64,000 nt of DNA, taken from the NCBI GenBank assembly GCA_021773835.1, contig JAJFJQ010000052.1:1-64000 (forward strand), written 5' to 3'. This document shows positions 43,374 to 56,182 of the stretch, in pieces; position 1 is the first letter of the stretch, and every line of letters begins with the position of its first letter. Below the pieces are notes generated by a model. It worked only from the letters and a program-made list of their open reading frames with translations. It was not told where the DNA came from and did no database searches. The DNA comes from Gammaproteobacteria bacterium. GTDB lineage: Bacteria > Pseudomonadota > Gammaproteobacteria > Ga0077536. A program made the translations under genes and the position numbers.

Positions 43374-44141
43374 GGATACAAGTTTTTAAATTAAAAAGTA
43401 AAAAGGGGTCGGAGTAAATTAAAAAGGGGTCGGAGCAAATTGTTTAGATGAACAATTCTGACACGATAGAACGATTAAGTTAGAACATATCGAAAATAGT
43501 CAAGAAGCGAAATGACATAGAACCCACACAATGAGATTACGGTTACTTCACACCATGTTGTGCAACGAGAAGAAATCGTCCTGCAATTTCGTCGGCTACC
43601 GTCGAGCATGGCGTATCTCCTGAAGGTCTAGGCCTCGCGGATTAAGAGAACGACAGTCATTCGCGCAGCGCCATTTGGATTACGTACCGTCGAAGTATCG
43701 TAACGAAAACCTAAATTACTCCGACCCCATAAATTAACCGTCGCATAGGCAGAAAAGCTTTGCGAAATTAACCTGCATGCGTATAGGAAAACTTCCCGAC
43801 TCATCTGCCATGTGAGAACCGGCAGTGACAGTATCATTTCAAGTACGCGTGGCATTCCGTGCAGGTTCAATAAGTTACTCGTTGATACTAGCGCGTGACC
43901 GACATAACGCGGGACGGTGGCGAAATTTGCGAATACGCCCTGCAATCCCCTAAATAGTGTTCATGCGGCGTAGGGTATAGCTATGCTAAAAATCCATCGT
44001 AGATGCTATCAACCTGCGCGCTTAGAAATCACAAAAGCATTTTAATTAGGAACGAGAAATGCGCGTCCGAGGAAAAATGTAAACCTAATCGTTTATACCT
44101 TGGATGTTGCAGCTTCAAATATTTTTCATGCTTAAGGTCTG
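43374..44141. other. Noncoding, repeat-bearing stretch before the secretion genes
   Basis: 768 bp with no supportable gene. It contains the repeat-bounded element at 43401-43728 and then about 400 bp of unremarkable sequence that must hold the promoter of the type I secretion operon. The 105-codon minus-strand frame at 43628-43945 has no recognisable features. Confidence 0.5.
43401..43728. mobile_element. Non-autonomous element with Y1-transposase-type repeats
   Basis: Two tandem copies of AAAAGGGGTCGGAG(T/C)AAATT (43401-43420 and 43421-43441) face one inverted AAATTACTCCGACCCC (43713-43728). The same repeat flanks the Y1 transposase gene at 48203. No transposase is inside, so this looks like a passive or decayed copy of about 330 bp. 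Confidence 0.6.
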
Positions 44142-46286
44142 ATGACAGATCCCAACGAACAGCGCGTGGACCGTGACACTGGAATCATGTGTCTAACTAT
44201 CGCGGCACGTCTGCATCATCTCCCAGCAGATCCCAAACAACTGGAGCACGAATTTGGCTCGAGTGAGCACGCCTTCGAAACGCGCGACCTGTTGCGTGCG
44301 GCAAAATGGCTGGGCCTGAAATCACGCGCGGTTCAGTCCAACTGGGATAAACTTGGCTCAACGCACTTCCCGTGCATCGCACGGCTCGCTCAAGATCGCT
44401 TTGTTCTCATCGGTGGCCTAAAAGACGATGAGGTCTTAATCAAGGATCCGCTCGAAGAGTCACCGAAAAAGATCGGTCGTGAAGAACTCGAGTCCCACTG
44501 GACCGGCGAGCTCATTCTGATAACGCGGCGTGCAGGTCTGGCCGCGACGTATAAGCAATTCGATTTCTCCTGGTTCATTCCATTTATCCTTAAGTACAAG
44601 CGATACTTGGGCGATGTACTGATTGCGTCGTTTTTCCTGCAACTATTTGCGCTCGTCACGCCACTCTTTTTCCAGGTTGTCGTCGATAAGGTCCTCGTTC
44701 ATCGCGGGCTGACAACCCTAGACGTGCTTGCCATTGGCTTACTGGCTGTTTCAGTCTTCGAAGTAGTGCTCGGCGGCTTACGAACTTATGTCTTTGCCCA
44801 CACCACGAATCGCATCGATGTCGCACTCGGTACCGATCTATTCAAACATCTTCTACGGCTGCCAGTGGCCTATTTTGAGGCCAGGCGCGTCGGCGATACG
44901 GTCGCACGAGTACGTGAATTGGAGACGATCCGAAGTTTCATCACGGGATCCTCGATCACTCTGGTGGTCGATCTGTTCTTCACCTTGGTCTTCTTCGCGG
45001 TTCTGTATCTATATAGTCCATTGCTCACACTTATCGTCGCGGGCACCTTGCCGCTCTATACGATCCTCGCGATAAGCATCACCCCGACATTGCGTACGCG
45101 CCTGCATGAAAAATTTAATCGCGGCGCCGACAATCAGGCCTATCTCGTGGAGTCGGTTACCGGTATTGAGACCCTCAAGGCATCAGCCGTCGAACCGTCA
45201 ACGCAACGCCGGTGGGAAGAACGCCTTTCGGCTTACGTCACAGCGAGTTTTAAGGCGACGAATCTCTCGAATATTGCGAATCAAGCAGCCTCGCTCATCA
45301 ATAAACTGATGGTGCTCGGGATCCTCTGGCTCGGCGCGCGACTCGTGATCAATGGAGAACTGACTGTCGGGCAGTTGGTTGCCTTCAACATGATCGCCGG
45401 ACGGATCTCAGGACCCATCCTGAGGTTGGTTCAGTTGTGGCAGGACTTCCAACAGGCGGGTATTTCGGTACAACGCTTGGGCGACATTCTTAATGCCCAG
45501 CCCGAGCCTGCGCATAGTCCGAGCCGCGGATCGTTACCCGACCTCAAAGGGCTGGTGAGTTTCGAACACGTGAGGTTTCGCTATCGGGTGGGAGGCCCAG
45601 AGGTGCTGCAGGAAATTTCCCTCGAGGTGCAGCCCGGCGAAGTTATCGGCATCGTCGGCCGGTCGGGATCCGGTAAGAGTACGTTGACGAAGTTGGTGCA
45701 GCGACTTTACGTGCCGGAATCTGGTCGCGTTCTAGTGGATGGGGTCGACCTCGCCATGGTCGACACCGCCTGGCTGCGTCGTAGTATTGGCGTCGTACTA
45801 CAGGAAAACGTGCTATTCAATCGCAGCGTCCGCGATAACGTTGCCATATCGGATCCTGCCATGCCAATCGAAAGAGTCGTGCACGCAGCGAAACTTTCTG
45901 GTGCTCACGAATTCATTCTGGAACTTGCAGAAGGCTACGACACGATGGTGGGCGAGCATGGTTCAACGCTGTCTGGCGGCCAACGCCAACGCATTGCCAT
46001 AGCCCGCGCGTTGGTCACGGATCCCAAGATCCTCATTTTCGATGAAGCCACCAGCGCCCTCGACTACGAGTCCGAAGCCATCATCCATCAGAACATGCGC
46101 TACATTTGCAAGGGTAGAACGGTGTTTGTTATTGCGCATCGCCTCTCGAGCGTCCGCATCGCGGATCGAATATTGGTGATCGATAAAGGACGTGTGGTTG
46201 AGACTGGCGGGCATTCGGACCTGATCGAGCAGGGTGGTTATTACGCACGGTTGCATCAGCATCAGGCTGGGATGGCGGTTGGTTAG
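44142..46286 (+). CDS. Type I secretion ABC transporter (HlyB-like permease/ATPase)
   Basis: 714 residues: an N-terminal C39-like domain (about 1-130), a six-helix exporter domain (about 150-430) and an ATPase domain (about 480-714). Walker A is GIVGRSGSGKST, the signature LSGGQRQRIAIARAL, Walker B ILIFDEATSALD. In the C39-like domain the catalytic cysteine position is Thr13 (DTGIMCL instead of xCGxxCL), and the histidine position appears as Arg in QDRFVLIG. It is therefore an inactive CLD-type domain that recognises rather than cleaves the substrate, as in HlyB. The likely cargo is an RTX-type protein, but none is in the window. Confidence 0.94.
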   Translation: MTDPNEQRVDRDTGIMCLTIAARLHHLPADPKQLEHEFGSSEHAFETRDLLRAAKWLGLKSRAVQSNWDKLGSTHFPCIARLAQDRFVLIGGLKDDEVLIKDPLEESPKKIGREELESHWTGELILITRRAGLAATYKQFDFSWFIPFILKYKRYLGDVLIASFFLQLFALVTPLFFQVVVDKVLVHRGLTTLDVLAIGLLAVSVFEVVLGGLRTYVFAHTTNRIDVALGTDLFKHLLRLPVAYFEARRVGDTVARVRELETIRSFITGSSITLVVDLFFTLVFFAVLYLYSPLLTLIVAGTLPLYTILAISITPTLRTRLHEKFNRGADNQAYLVESVTGIETLKASAVEPSTQRRWEERLSAYVTASFKATNLSNIANQAASLINKLMVLGILWLGARLVINGELTVGQLVAFNMIAGRISGPILRLVQLWQDFQQAGISVQRLGDILNAQPEPAHSPSRGSLPDLKGLVSFEHVRFRYRVGGPEVLQEISLEVQPGEVIGIVGRSGSGKSTLTKLVQRLYVPESGRVLVDGVDLAMVDTAWLRRSIGVVLQENVLFNRSVRDNVAISDPAMPIERVVHAAKLSGAHEFILELAEGYDTMVGEHGSTLSGGQRQRIAIARALVTDPKILIFDEATSALDYESEAIIHQNMRYICKGRTVFVIAHRLSSVRIADRILVIDKGRVVETGGHSDLIEQGGYYARLHQHQAGMAVG

Positions 46287-46294
46287 GGTTGCTA

Positions 46295-46737
46295 GTTAAC
46301 CACGAAGAACACGGAGGTTTTGTAGTGAAGATTGCTGATGAGCGTTTGGTCGCCGATGTTATTGGCGCCGCAATAGAGGTTCATCGTGTTCTTGGTCCGG
46401 GGTTGTTGGACTCAGTAGATGAGAGAGCGCTGGCGTATGAATTATCTTTGCTGGGTGTGGGGTTTGAAAGACAGAAGGTCGTTTCAGTTTCCTATAAAGG
46501 TGTTGCGCTCGAATTCGGGTTTCGCTCGGATTTAGTAGTCGAAAAGCAACTAGTTTTCGGACTGAAAACAGTGGAGAGGACCCTTGCATTACACACCGCA
46601 CAAATCATTACGTATTTGAAATTGCTAGACATCAAACGAAGCTTAATATTTAACTTCAATTCGACACTGCTGAAAAATGGAATCAAAAGAATATCCATCT
46701 GAATTTCTCCGTGTCCTTAGTGCTCTCCGTGGTTAAC
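46295..46737. mobile_element. GxxExxY cassette bounded by inverted repeats
   Basis: GTTAACCACGAAGAACACGG starts at 46295. Its imperfect inverse CTCTCCGTGGTTAAC ends at 46737, with a further CTCCGTGTCC copy inside. One gene lies between. The element occupies all but 13 bp of the gap between the secretion ATPase and adaptor genes. Related ends occur at 39232-39325. No transposase is encoded, so the mechanism of movement is unknown. Confidence 0.7.
46325..46702 (+). CDS. GxxExxY family protein
   Basis: 125 residues from the GTG at 46325, preferred because GGAGG at 46313-46317 is 7 bp upstream; that GGAGG is part of the cassette's terminal repeat. Family features are IGAAIEVHRVLGPGLLDSV, LSLLGVGFERQKVVSVSYKG, FRSDLVVEKQLVFGLKTVE, and the C-terminal NFNSTLLKNGIKRI. 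The eponymous motif is altered: where relatives have GLLESVY, this copy has GLLDSVD, losing both Glu and Tyr. The family function is unknown; some resemblance to a nuclease-like core has been proposed in general terms, which I cannot test. Confidence 0.88.
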   Translation: MKIADERLVADVIGAAIEVHRVLGPGLLDSVDERALAYELSLLGVGFERQKVVSVSYKGVALEFGFRSDLVVEKQLVFGLKTVERTLALHTAQIITYLKLLDIKRSLIFNFNSTLLKNGIKRISI

Positions 46738-46742
46738 CCGTA

Positions 46743-48086
46743 ATGAGTAGCAAACCCGACACCCTAGAATTCCTCCCAGCGGCACTAGAGATAGAGCAAA
46801 CCCCGCCGCTACCGGTTAGCCGATACATCCTGTGGGCCATCATGCTCCTATTCACGATCGCCGTCGTTTGGGCCTGCATAGGACACATTGATATTGTAGG
46901 GGTCGCACAAGGAAAAATCGTCCCCTCCGGACGTGTCAAGACTGTGCAGCCGCTCGAAACAGGTATCGTTAAGGCCATTCACATCACGGAAGGCCAGCAC
47001 GTAAACGCGAGTGAAGTTCTTATCGAACTCGAAGACGCCAAAGTCCAAGCCGACCTCAATCGCTTTCGCCAAGAACGACGCGCAGCGGAGGCGGAACGAA
47101 CGAAACTCGACACGCAAATCGAAGCACTCAATCGATTCGCAACCCCCTCCGCATTTTTCGACCGCGATCTGAATTCGAGAATCATGCAGACTGACGCACA
47201 GCCGAACATTGTTGCGCGGGTCACGAAAGCCTTAAACGAGCATTACGCCAATGTCGGCGCGATTGAAGAGCAGATGACACAAAACCGCGCCGAACGTACA
47301 ACCTATGAACGCCGCATCGCCCAGCTCGATGCCACTATCCCGCTCATCGCGGAACGCGCAGCGGCCGTGAAAGAACTCGAAAAACAGTCTCTCGCGCCGC
47401 GGGCAAGCTGGTTAGAACTGGAAGAGGATCGAGTCGAGCAGGAAAAAGATCGCGATGTGATCCGAGCCCAACTGGCGGTGACCGATGCGGCGTATCAGAA
47501 CCTCAGGCAACGGCGCGCCGCACTGGTAGCACAAACACAATCCGACTGGCTGACGGAACGTACAGAGCTTGAAACCAAACTCAAGTCGTTTGATCAAGAG
47601 ATATTGAAAACACAAACACGGGTTAAAGAGCTGCAACTCCGAGCGCCTGTCGCGGGCACTGTTCAACAGCTCGCCGTGAATACAGTTGGCGGGGTGGTTA
47701 CTCCCGCAGAGAAACTGATGCTCATCATACCCAGCGACGACGCGCTCCGGGTCGAGGCATGGATCCCCAACAAAGACATTGGTTTTGTACAGGACGGGCA
47801 GGCTGCAGAGATAAAGGTAGAAACTTTTCCGTTCACCAAGTACGGCGTTATCGATGGGGAGATCGCCACCATCTCCAACGATGCGATTGCGGACGAAAAT
47901 CTAGGTCTCGTGTATCTCGCGCAAGTGAGTATGGCGAAGACCACGATGTGGATGAAGGATAGGCTCGTGAATCTCTCGCCGGGGATGACGGTGACAGTGG
48001 AAGTTAATATGGGTCAGAGGCGCTTGATTGAGTTTCTTCTGACACCGTTACTCCGTTACAAAGACGAAGGGTTACAGGAGAGATGA
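46743..48086 (+). CDS. HlyD-family type I secretion membrane fusion protein
   Basis: 447 residues. A short cytoplasmic N-terminus precedes one transmembrane helix (about 28-47, ILWAIMLLFTIAVVWACIGH). Then come the first lipoyl half-motif (GRVKTVQPLETGIVKAIHIT), a long alpha-helical hairpin (about 100-280) with Glu/Arg-rich coiled coil, the second lipoyl half (LRAPVAGTVQQLAVNTVGGVV) and the beta-barrel and membrane-proximal end with NLSPGMTVTVEVNMGQR. It pairs with the upstream ATPase to bridge to a TolC-type outer-membrane channel, not seen here. No good ribosome binding site precedes its ATG; the GxxExxY cassette ends 5 bp upstream. Confidence 0.94.
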   Translation: MSSKPDTLEFLPAALEIEQTPPLPVSRYILWAIMLLFTIAVVWACIGHIDIVGVAQGKIVPSGRVKTVQPLETGIVKAIHITEGQHVNASEVLIELEDAKVQADLNRFRQERRAAEAERTKLDTQIEALNRFATPSAFFDRDLNSRIMQTDAQPNIVARVTKALNEHYANVGAIEEQMTQNRAERTTYERRIAQLDATIPLIAERAAAVKELEKQSLAPRASWLELEEDRVEQEKDRDVIRAQLAVTDAAYQNLRQRRAALVAQTQSDWLTERTELETKLKSFDQEILKTQTRVKELQLRAPVAGTVQQLAVNTVGGVVTPAEKLMLIIPSDDALRVEAWIPNKDIGFVQDGQAAEIKVETFPFTKYGVIDGEIATISNDAIADENLGLVYLAQVSMAKTTMWMKDRLVNLSPGMTVTVEVNMGQRRLIEFLLTPLLRYKDEGLQER

Positions 48087-48202: not shown

Positions 48203-48898
48203 ATGGCAAGGAAGCCACGCAATTACATCGCCGATATCCCGTGTCATGTCGTACAACGGGGAAATGATCGTCAAGCGACGTTTTATACAAATGCCGATTA
48301 TGGTGTGTACCTTGAGAGTCTACGTCTTGCGTGTGAAGACTACGAATGTGAGTTGCACTGCTATGTGTTAATGACGAACCATGTTCATTTGCTACTGACG
48401 CCGCGCACGACAGACGGGATCTCAAAGGTGATGCAATCGCTGGGACGACGCTACGTCCGTTATATTAATGGGCGGTATGCAAGGACCGGGACGTTGTGGG
48501 AAGGGCGACACCATGCGAATCTGATCCAATCGAGCCTGTATCTCCTCAGGTGTTACCGCTACATCGAGCTCAATCCGGTGCGCGCGGGGATCGTAGATCA
48601 TCCTAACAAGTATCGATGGTCGAGTTATCACTATCATGGTAGTGGAGCAGTGAGCCACTTAATTGAGCCTCATCCAGAATATCGGGCGCTAGGTCGGACG
48701 GACGCGGAGCGCCAATCGCAGTATCGTGCACTGATGGGGATGGATATCGAGGCGGTGGAATCCGACGCCATACGCCGTTGTATTCACCATGGTCTTCCGT
48801 TGGGGGATGCACGATTCAAGGAGGAGGTCGAAACGCTACTTGGTCGACGCCTTGAAGACAGGGGCCCTGGAAGGCCACGCAAGACCCCGGCTGTCTAG
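48203..48898 (+). CDS. REP-associated tyrosine transposase (Y1_Tnp / IS200-like)
   Basis: 231 residues. The HUH motif is HVHLLLTP in CYVLMTNHVHLLLTP (about residues 54-68), and the nucleophile tyrosine is in the YLLRCYRYIELNPVRAG helix (about 113-130). An N-terminal MARKPRNYIADIPCHVVQRG and a C-terminal basic tail (GRPRK) are typical of the RAYT group. These single-strand transposases are linked to the spread of REP palindromes. The flanking GGGGTCGGAGTAAATT repeats are its likely recognition or end sequences (inference). The ATG is preceded by AAGGGGGC. Confidence 0.95.
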   Translation: MARKPRNYIADIPCHVVQRGNDRQATFYTNADYGVYLESLRLACEDYECELHCYVLMTNHVHLLLTPRTTDGISKVMQSLGRRYVRYINGRYARTGTLWEGRHHANLIQSSLYLLRCYRYIELNPVRAGIVDHPNKYRWSSYHYHGSGAVSHLIEPHPEYRALGRTDAERQSQYRALMGMDIEAVESDAIRRCIHHGLPLGDARFKEEVETLLGRRLEDRGPGRPRKTPAV

Positions 48899-48913
48899 CC
48901 GTCGAGTTTCCTA

Positions 48914-49000
48914 ATTTACTCCGACCCCGTTTATTCTCCGATTTACTCCGACCCCGTTTATTCTCCGACCCCGTTTATTACCCCGTTTATTCGGTTTATT
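48914..49000. repeat. Decaying tandem repeat array beside the transposase
   Basis: Two identical 27-bp units ATTTACTCCGACCCCGTTTATTCTCCG (48914-48940 and 48941-48967, by position) are followed by two 12-bp ACCCCGTTTATT units (48968-48979 and 48980-48991) and a last CGGTTTATT (48992-49000). Each successive unit is a 5'-truncated version of the first. Confidence 0.88.
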
Positions 49001-55804: not shown

Positions 55805-56182
55805 TTAAGTCGATGCGAGCATGGACCCGTTACGGGTCTTTTCGCGGTAGTCATTGATCAGACCTTGAAGCATGCTCGAAATCTTTAGAGACTCCGCGAT
55901 CAGATCGATCGATTGTCCGTTATCGATGATGCCGAGTTCTCCTGCTATGTAGAGGTGAGTTCTTAGTTCGGCGCAGGAGCCTTTCGCGTTTTCAAGATAA
56001 CGTCGACGTTGAGCTTGTGAGGTGCGCTCGTATCCAGCGGCAACGTTGGATGCTATCGCCAGTGAGGCGCGGGTTACGAGATCGCGAAAGCCGTTGTCGT
56101 GACATTCGTGTAGCGTGCGGTGGGTTTGAATCGCCAGATCACAGGAGCGATTCCAGATATTAATACCGTCTAGCGTCTTCAT
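55805..56182 (-). CDS. Four-helix bundle protein (S23/IVP family)
   Basis: 125 residues. The pattern IWNRSCDLAIQTHR, RDLVTRASLAIASNVAAGYER, RRYLENAKGSCAELRTHLYIA, then LKISSMLQGLINDYRE matches the four-helix-bundle family first noted as 23S rRNA intervening-sequence proteins. The function is unknown. A textbook AAGGAGGT lies just upstream of the ATG (56187-56194 on the plus axis), the strongest ribosome binding site I saw in the window. It stands on the minus strand 75 bp beyond rpsI, with the tRNA copies further along. There is no rRNA here, so it is a stand-alone copy. Confidence 0.92.
   Translation of the reverse strand: MKTLDGINIWNRSCDLAIQTHRTLHECHDNGFRDLVTRASLAIASNVAAGYERTSQAQRRRYLENAKGSCAELRTHLYIAGELGIIDNGQSIDLIAESLKISSMLQGLINDYREKTRNGSMLAST

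Follow-up and report, generated by a model that had tools for sequence, protein, structure and literature searches.

A cassette of 443 bp, in which a GxxExxY gene (PF13366/TIGR04256) lies between inverted arms, fills the hlyB-hlyD junction of a gammaproteobacterial type I secretion operon. We consider it probable that the cassette is one decayed member of an element that resembles the REP/RAYT systems in combining palindromes with a nuclease, the enzyme here being of PD-(D/E)XK type. The intact element would be a short Cas4/RecB-like nuclease gene between inverted arms made of units of about 9 nt, and its genome would also contain many further copies of the arms in the form of gene-less hairpins. 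Such elements would be sited at gene ends, for the most part within a pair of co-directional genes whose orientation they share.

The stretch of DNA analysed (64,000 nucleotides, hereafter the window) has a HlyB-type ATPase gene followed by a HlyD-type adaptor gene, the order that identifies a hlyB-hlyD operon of type I secretion (Table 1). As the preliminary description had it, the cassette exactly fills the gap between the two, only 8 and 5 bp of operon spacer being left outside it. The gene within scores 116.4 bits with TIGR04256 (cut-off 35) and 112.3 bits with PF13366 (cut-off 22); its best start is a GTG, and its ribosome-binding site would be supplied by the left arm. The arms are 23 nt each and 83% complementary. 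Taken alone the stem is marginal, since its score of 12 was reached by 1/57 and 7/250 background windows in two sets; it is held to be more than chance because the same arms recur in the window's own genome and flank GxxExxY genes of other genomes. Just outside the cassette, at 46286-46294 and 46748-46756, is an imperfect 9-nt inverted repeat (GGGTTGCTA / TAGCAAACC), which may be a palindrome that the target had before or may be due to chance. A search of Rfam with positions 46200-46800 gave one sub-threshold SNORD113 match only, judged to be chance, and ten related loci gave no match at the gathering level. PADLOC had no match for the window protein or that of locus L134, and a match for the L086 protein (E 0.0096) was likewise put down to chance.

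Table 1. Features of the hlyB-hlyD junction, and a gene-less hairpin elsewhere in the window
Feature	Position	Strand	Evidence or remark
Solo hairpin, same ends as cassette	39235..39321		fold z -8.75
hlyB-type permease/ATPase, C39-like domain, 5' of cassette	44142..46286	+	TIGR01846 1046.5 bits (cut-off 725.55); Pfam
Left 8-bp rest of operon spacer	46287..46294
Left terminal arm, units CCACGAAGA ACACGGAGG	46295..46317	+	same family as solo hairpins of own genome
GGAGG, Shine-Dalgarno of GxxExxY gene, within left arm	46313..46317	+	-10.2 kcal/mol
GxxExxY gene, 125 aa, PD-(D/E)XK fold, predicted catalytically dead	46325..46702 (GTG to end of stop codon)	+	E79G; motif E29D, Y32D
Right arm, three units CCACGGAGA GCACTAAGG ACACGGAG	extending to about 46706	-	inverted-repeat pairs
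Right terminal arm, inverted copy of left arm	46715..46737	-
Right 5-bp rest of operon spacer	46738..46742
hlyD-type adaptor, 3' of cassette, ATG 46743	46743..48086	+	TIGR01843 387.7 bits (cut-off 208.65)

Is the cassette a newcomer at this site? The preliminary description proposed insertion into an operon junction, which the relatives support well. The adaptor was matched in 56 of 96 genomes searched; from the best relatives 29 loci were retained, and in 27 of these hlyB was also readable. A GxxExxY match was found in none of the 27 junctions. The uninterrupted ATPase-HlyD junction that the same description asked to be sought is present: in eight of the nine closest relatives (L003-L011) the distance from stop to start, measured to the nearest plausible start codon, is -8 to +16 nt. 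Relatives with this gene order therefore do not all carry the gene at this spot, and the end repeats are not absent from the genomes, being recurrent in that of the window. The spacer of L010 holds about 325 nt of other, repeat-like sequence (CGTCATTCCCGCGAAAGC..., presumably a repeat), and in that genome a different repeat may thus have settled at this junction; longer spacers, again without a GxxExxY gene, are present in L017 and L021 as well. The three genus mates searched gave no match to the adaptor, so that the site itself could not be read in any close relative. A PF13366 gene occurs in 3 of 36 genomes of the window genome's family.

The consequences suggested for hlyD were examined at its translation start. 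The adaptor ATG had been described as having no convincing ribosome binding site, and its Shine-Dalgarno sequence is indeed weak (-2.2 kcal/mol), but in six of the seven close relatives examined it likewise falls short of -6.5, the 5% level for random sequence, and joining the flanks in silico brings the window value to -4.1 kcal/mol. The idea that insertion weakened HlyD translation is therefore not borne out. Judging by these values a slight loss of Shine-Dalgarno strength through insertion may have occurred, and loss of the close stop-start coupling of hlyB and hlyD is plausible; any effect of the cassette on hlyD, including the cassette control that the preliminary description envisaged, is one that we infer.

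Gain, loss and decay can be followed at another site. Two further cassette junctions are, judging from the sequences, ribF-ileS and pheA-hisC. In the genus of G119, ribF was matched in 19 of 23 genomes. The ribF-ileS junction has an intact GxxExxY gene in G119, one with a frameshift in G111, genes with internal deletions between preserved arms in G140, G275 and G251, and short remnants in G132 and (without arms) G297; in G215 and G223 the arms surround a stretch that looks gene-like by eye and has no tblastn match. Five genomes were scored as empty (G136, G103, G204, G115, and G354 with a long unrelated spacer), and in five more ileS does not adjoin ribF. Weak tblastn matches in two of the empty genomes, G204 (E 0.001) and G136 (E 0.011), with 33% identity over fewer than 30 residues, were taken as chance; a trace of the element there is possible. 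Filled genomes are scattered among empty ones in the ribF tree, which takes four changes, at least three of them forced by supported branches. After insertion the gene would decay by point mutation and internal deletion, the arms often staying behind.

The end of RibF is also informative. In the five empty genomes the protein stops one residue past Ile-Leu, and in G119, G275, G251 and G140 it runs into the element, which points to insertion at the ribF stop codon; where ileS is not beside ribF the length of this end is variable, at one to seven residues. The same observation weighs against the idea that the window gene is an old resident of its operon, lost by the relatives, with no insertion at all. 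We regard this as scarcely credible, for it would have the gene missing from 27 of 27 readable relatives; what speaks for it is that the three genus mates lack an adaptor match and so leave no close relative readable. Identity between the ribF cassettes of G119 and G111 was considered as a sign of transfer and rejected: the pair is mosaic, its identity being 83.9% overall and that of the flanks 81.1% and 91.7%. Recombination therefore acts as well.

The protein encoded by the window cassette was modelled with AlphaFold2 from 102 sequences, giving a mean pLDDT of 93. Foldseek found no match to the model at E 0.001 or better, the best being 4ic1 (SSO0001, which we take to be a Cas4 nuclease) at 2.6e-3. 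VIA-align also put 4ic1 first, with Z 9.5 and an rmsd of 3.1 over 98 residues, and restriction-enzyme and Holliday-resolvase folds behind it at 7 to 8. A sequence profile found nothing in the PDB up to E 1. The fold is accordingly predicted, from the model, to be that of a Cas4/RecB-like PD-(D/E)XK nuclease. Residues D69, K81, H90, Q93 and Y97 are invariant in 102/102 sequences, Q93 and Y97 forming a QxxxY pattern, and the glutamate of the ExK motif (E79) is present in 101/102. In modelled fold and in these residues the family resembles Cas4, lambda exonuclease and AddB; it differs from them in being a minimal domain of about 117 aa. The single exception at E79 is the window copy itself, which has E79G and keeps D69 and K81 of the catalytic D...E-x-K that the other 101 sequences possess in full. 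Its name motif, G-x-x-E-x-x-Y, reads GLLDSVD, the E and the Y each being present in 101/102 sequences. E79G, E29D and Y32D are thus peculiar to the window copy, within a sample that favours intact copies since its loci were chosen by best score. Having lost the ExK glutamate and the motif residues, the window copy, although its frame is open, is probably a dead nuclease, to be classed from its sequence as a degenerate GxxExxY homologue and not an active member.

Inverted arms around GxxExxY genes are the rule. A first set comprised 33 loci from the window's own genome, its family and a phylum sample; among the 32 with sufficient flanks, 27 had inverted arms scoring 12 or more, compared with 6 in direct orientation and 1/57 in the background. 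A second set consisted of named loci, archaeal ones as well as those of many bacterial phyla. It was taken as the best-scoring 80 of at least 583 and is therefore not a random draw; within it, the 77 loci with flanks gave 60 with inverted arms and 17 with direct (background 7/250), leaving 17 of these 77 without clear inverted arms. The units are about 9 nt long, and the commonest ends are TT(A/C)ACC ... GGT(T/G)AA. Within a locus, one arm matches the other at 21.1 of 27 nt, against 14.5 between loci, and none of 10000 permutations was as high; this comparison covers the 56 of 102 loci with anchored arms.

Arm types may also go with the protein. Among the 102 loci CRCNRAG is found on both sides in 78, CRCNGAT in 5 and neither in 19. 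For four of the five GAT-type proteins the nearest relative is another GAT-type protein, and 82 of the 83 typed loci share their arm type with the nearest protein relative, the best of 2000 shuffles being 80, though only five loci are GAT-type. In 400 kb read from G119 both arm types occur, and a separate gene and separate gene-less hairpins belong to each. At the ribF-ileS site the type is CRCNRAG in G215 and G223, mixed in G132 and CRCNGAT in G119, a pattern not accounted for by simply matching arm type to protein clade. From G119:C1:232589 onward (L246) there are about ten tandem copies of the CACAGATAAA unit; arms can thus expand as tandem arrays.

Terminal inverted repeats, together with short gene-less copies that share them with a gene-bearing element, recall MITEs and their parent insertion sequences. 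One might accordingly suppose that a DDE transposase encoded elsewhere moves an ordinary IS/MITE pair, in which GxxExxY is a passenger. A target-site duplication was sought in 56 loci and none was found (2.43 nt in the mean, compared with 2.53 for shuffled partners); the ends do not enclose a DDE transposase gene, and it is the same nuclease family that lies between arms in archaea and many bacterial phyla. We hold this explanation to be very improbable.

The arms of the window cassette are not confined to it. A single-arm pattern allowing two mismatches matched its own genome 33 times, compared with 8 for the reversed control, and besides one GxxExxY gene the genome has 11 solo hairpins with arms of the cassette type. 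Nine of these fold at z -2.3 or below and two are degenerate. By a longest-ORF rule, tandem genes surround six of the 11 and convergent genes four; the remaining hairpin touches a stop codon and overlaps with a short ORF in antisense. The junction of one solo hairpin (C21:450417) was found in one of the three genus mates searched, G003, in which it measures 21 nt (the window genome has 154 nt) at about 82% DNA identity. The G003 junction is an empty site, but about 60 nt of the difference in length lie outside the hairpin, and the empty state could have arisen by deletion. With one mismatch allowed, arms are not clearly more frequent than the control in the genus mates (G001, 17 vs 12; G002, 10 vs 6; G003, 8 vs 11).

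Arms outnumber genes elsewhere as well. In 49 gene-bearing genomes, which come from 50 of the best 80 (of at least 583) loci, the arm pattern has 2139 matches (median 19) and the reversed pattern 15; 32 of the genomes have at least ten matches and four have none, and copies reach about 250 per genome. Where arms are neighbours within 150 nt, as counted in G397, 20 pairs face as hairpins and one the opposite way. Within the family f89 the median is 15 arms in genomes with the gene (n=45) and 0 in those without (n=29; p 3e-7, kinship uncorrected); outside f89, 12 gene-bearing genomes have a median of just 1. Some genomes are rich in arms and have no detected gene, namely G354 (35 arms), G099 (25) and G012 (90, control 31); perhaps these are relics or incomplete assemblies. 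One query protein found GxxExxY on plasmids in 8 of 72,556 records and in none of 50,697 phage records.

These distributions bear on whether the hairpins could be regulatory or mRNA-stabilising repeats maintained by the host and spread by recombination, with GxxExxY a passenger that uses them without moving them. The position of solo hairpins 3' of genes (six tandem and four convergent of the 11), the lack of target-site duplications and the genomes with many arms and no detected gene would all suit it, but arm abundance tracks gene presence in f89, and cassette and solo arms are of the same type within a genome, G119 having two types each with its own gene. On this evidence we think such an origin distinctly unlikely.

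Cassettes share a preference in their landing sites. We mapped 45, from the best 80 of at least 583 loci, that have arms and neighbours within 500 nt: 34 are between co-directional genes in sense, one against, and six and four in the mixed orders. The 34 are partly non-independent (nine at one site, three at another, two at a third and possibly two more) and have median spacers of 5.5 and 15 nt, so the 8 and 5 nt of the window cassette are typical. By Pfam families the site common to three is trpD-trpC, and further junctions are those of a MiaB-like gene with a glutamyl/glutaminyl-tRNA synthetase gene and of hemN-hemH. Co-direction of the neighbours as such was rejected as a special feature, because co-direction is also common among the other pairs of adjacent ORFs in these loci (175 of 237); sense orientation of the gene is the sole landing-site feature that stands out. 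Lying in sense between co-directional genes, the nuclease gene would be read by the host operon.

Sense orientation would equally suit a cassette acting at the RNA level, like the intervening sequences of 23S rRNA (Coxiella, Leptospira), with a stem in the mRNA at which RNase III would cut so that the cassette is excised or separated, and with rare spread by other means. Size and layout agree: the Coxiella intervening sequence is 428 nt long with a 28-bp terminal stem, an ORF in the loop and heptamer repeats ahead of the S23 ORF (PMC4990558). The outer arms of the cassette RNA can pair, giving a fold of z -2.18 that 2 of 100 shuffles equalled in stability, and most of the solo hairpins are stable too. 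The family of the intervening-sequence protein, PF05635, is also found between inverted tandem arms, with 19/29 loci scoring 12 or more (direct orientation 4/29, background 1/57). Against this, the element is intergenic, here between hlyB and hlyD and outside rRNA; its protein is PF13366, not PF05635, with a modelled fold of DNA-nuclease type; its units are of about 9 nt; and four of the 11 solo hairpins are between convergent genes. An RNA-level cassette seems to us unlikely. The PF05635 (23S rRNA IVP/S23 four-helix) loci, L095-L124, have arms with units of about 7 nt (for example GTAGGCA, GTGAGTA, GTGAGAT). The only PF05635 gene of the window's genome, at window positions 55862-56161 and apparently downstream of rpsI, is without inverted arms, and a common end of GxxExxY and PF05635 genes in this genome was rejected on that ground.

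The reading that we prefer, a nuclease paired with palindromes, follows the REP/RAYT case by analogy. There the gene is flanked by two inverted palindromic repeats, the repeats far exceed the gene in number, their abundance follows that of the gene, and they are intergenic (PMC2817692). GxxExxY genes likewise are flanked by inverted repeats that are overrepresented and whose abundance is correlated with the gene. For coevolution of repeat and enzyme the sequences compared give mixed indications. The differences are that the modelled enzyme is Cas4/RecB-like PD-(D/E)XK and that of REP/RAYT a Y1/HUH transposase, that the arms here are tandem units of about 9 nt, and that the elements here occur in bacteria and archaea. 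Since the enzyme is unlike RAYT, a REP/RAYT-like system is proposed, not membership. By this analogy the nuclease would act on the arms and cause their spread, most likely by cutting arms folded as hairpins and so leading to the copying of arm pairs, and the gene-less hairpins would be non-autonomous copies. No Cas4/RecB-like nuclease is known to transpose by itself. Against this preferred reading stand the lack of a target-site duplication, the arm-rich genomes in which no gene was detected and the want of a clear arm excess in the genus mates, as do the 17 of 77 loci without clear inverted arms, the mosaic ribF cassettes, the differing arm types at ribF-ileS, the possible deletion in G003 and the want of a Foldseek match at E 0.001 or better.

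We put forward more tentatively, as a possibility falling a little short of an even chance, that GxxExxY genes with palindromes of 9-nt units form a new class of prokaryotic DNA element, present across bacteria and archaea, in which the minimal nuclease copies or moves hairpin repeats as an enzymatically independent counterpart of REP/RAYT, and that the S23/IVP four-helix genes between arms of 7-nt units may be a second class. If so, the latter would link the intervening sequences of 23S rRNA to intergenic repeats. In the portions of open-access full texts available GxxExxY appears only as an annotation label, and description elsewhere is possible; PDDEXK_3 was not found in the open-access texts searched, and among the titles listed for the arm strings there were unrelated subjects only and nothing otherwise on the element. 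For Thiomargarita, MITEs and palindromic repeats have been reported, with no such nuclease in the part of that report available (PMC4853749). Many genomes have annotated GxxExxY genes to which no role is assigned, and the framing of these genes by matched inverted repeats would give them a concrete and testable function, that of a nuclease acting on its own palindromes. This model would account for one class of hairpins between genes of bacteria and archaea, would show that REP/RAYT-like arrangements can arise with an unrelated nuclease, and would mark operon junctions as landing places.

A RAYT-like gene is itself close by. Directly after hlyD, at window positions 48203-48898, lies a gene for a RAYT-like Y1 transposase (NF047646, 71.3 bits, below the cut-off of 80). 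Repeats of the GGGGTCGGAGTAAATT type were seen by eye on both sides of it and before hlyB (near 43400, 43720, 48110 and 48910-48990), and two repeat-nuclease systems thus seem to meet at the hlyB-hlyD operon.
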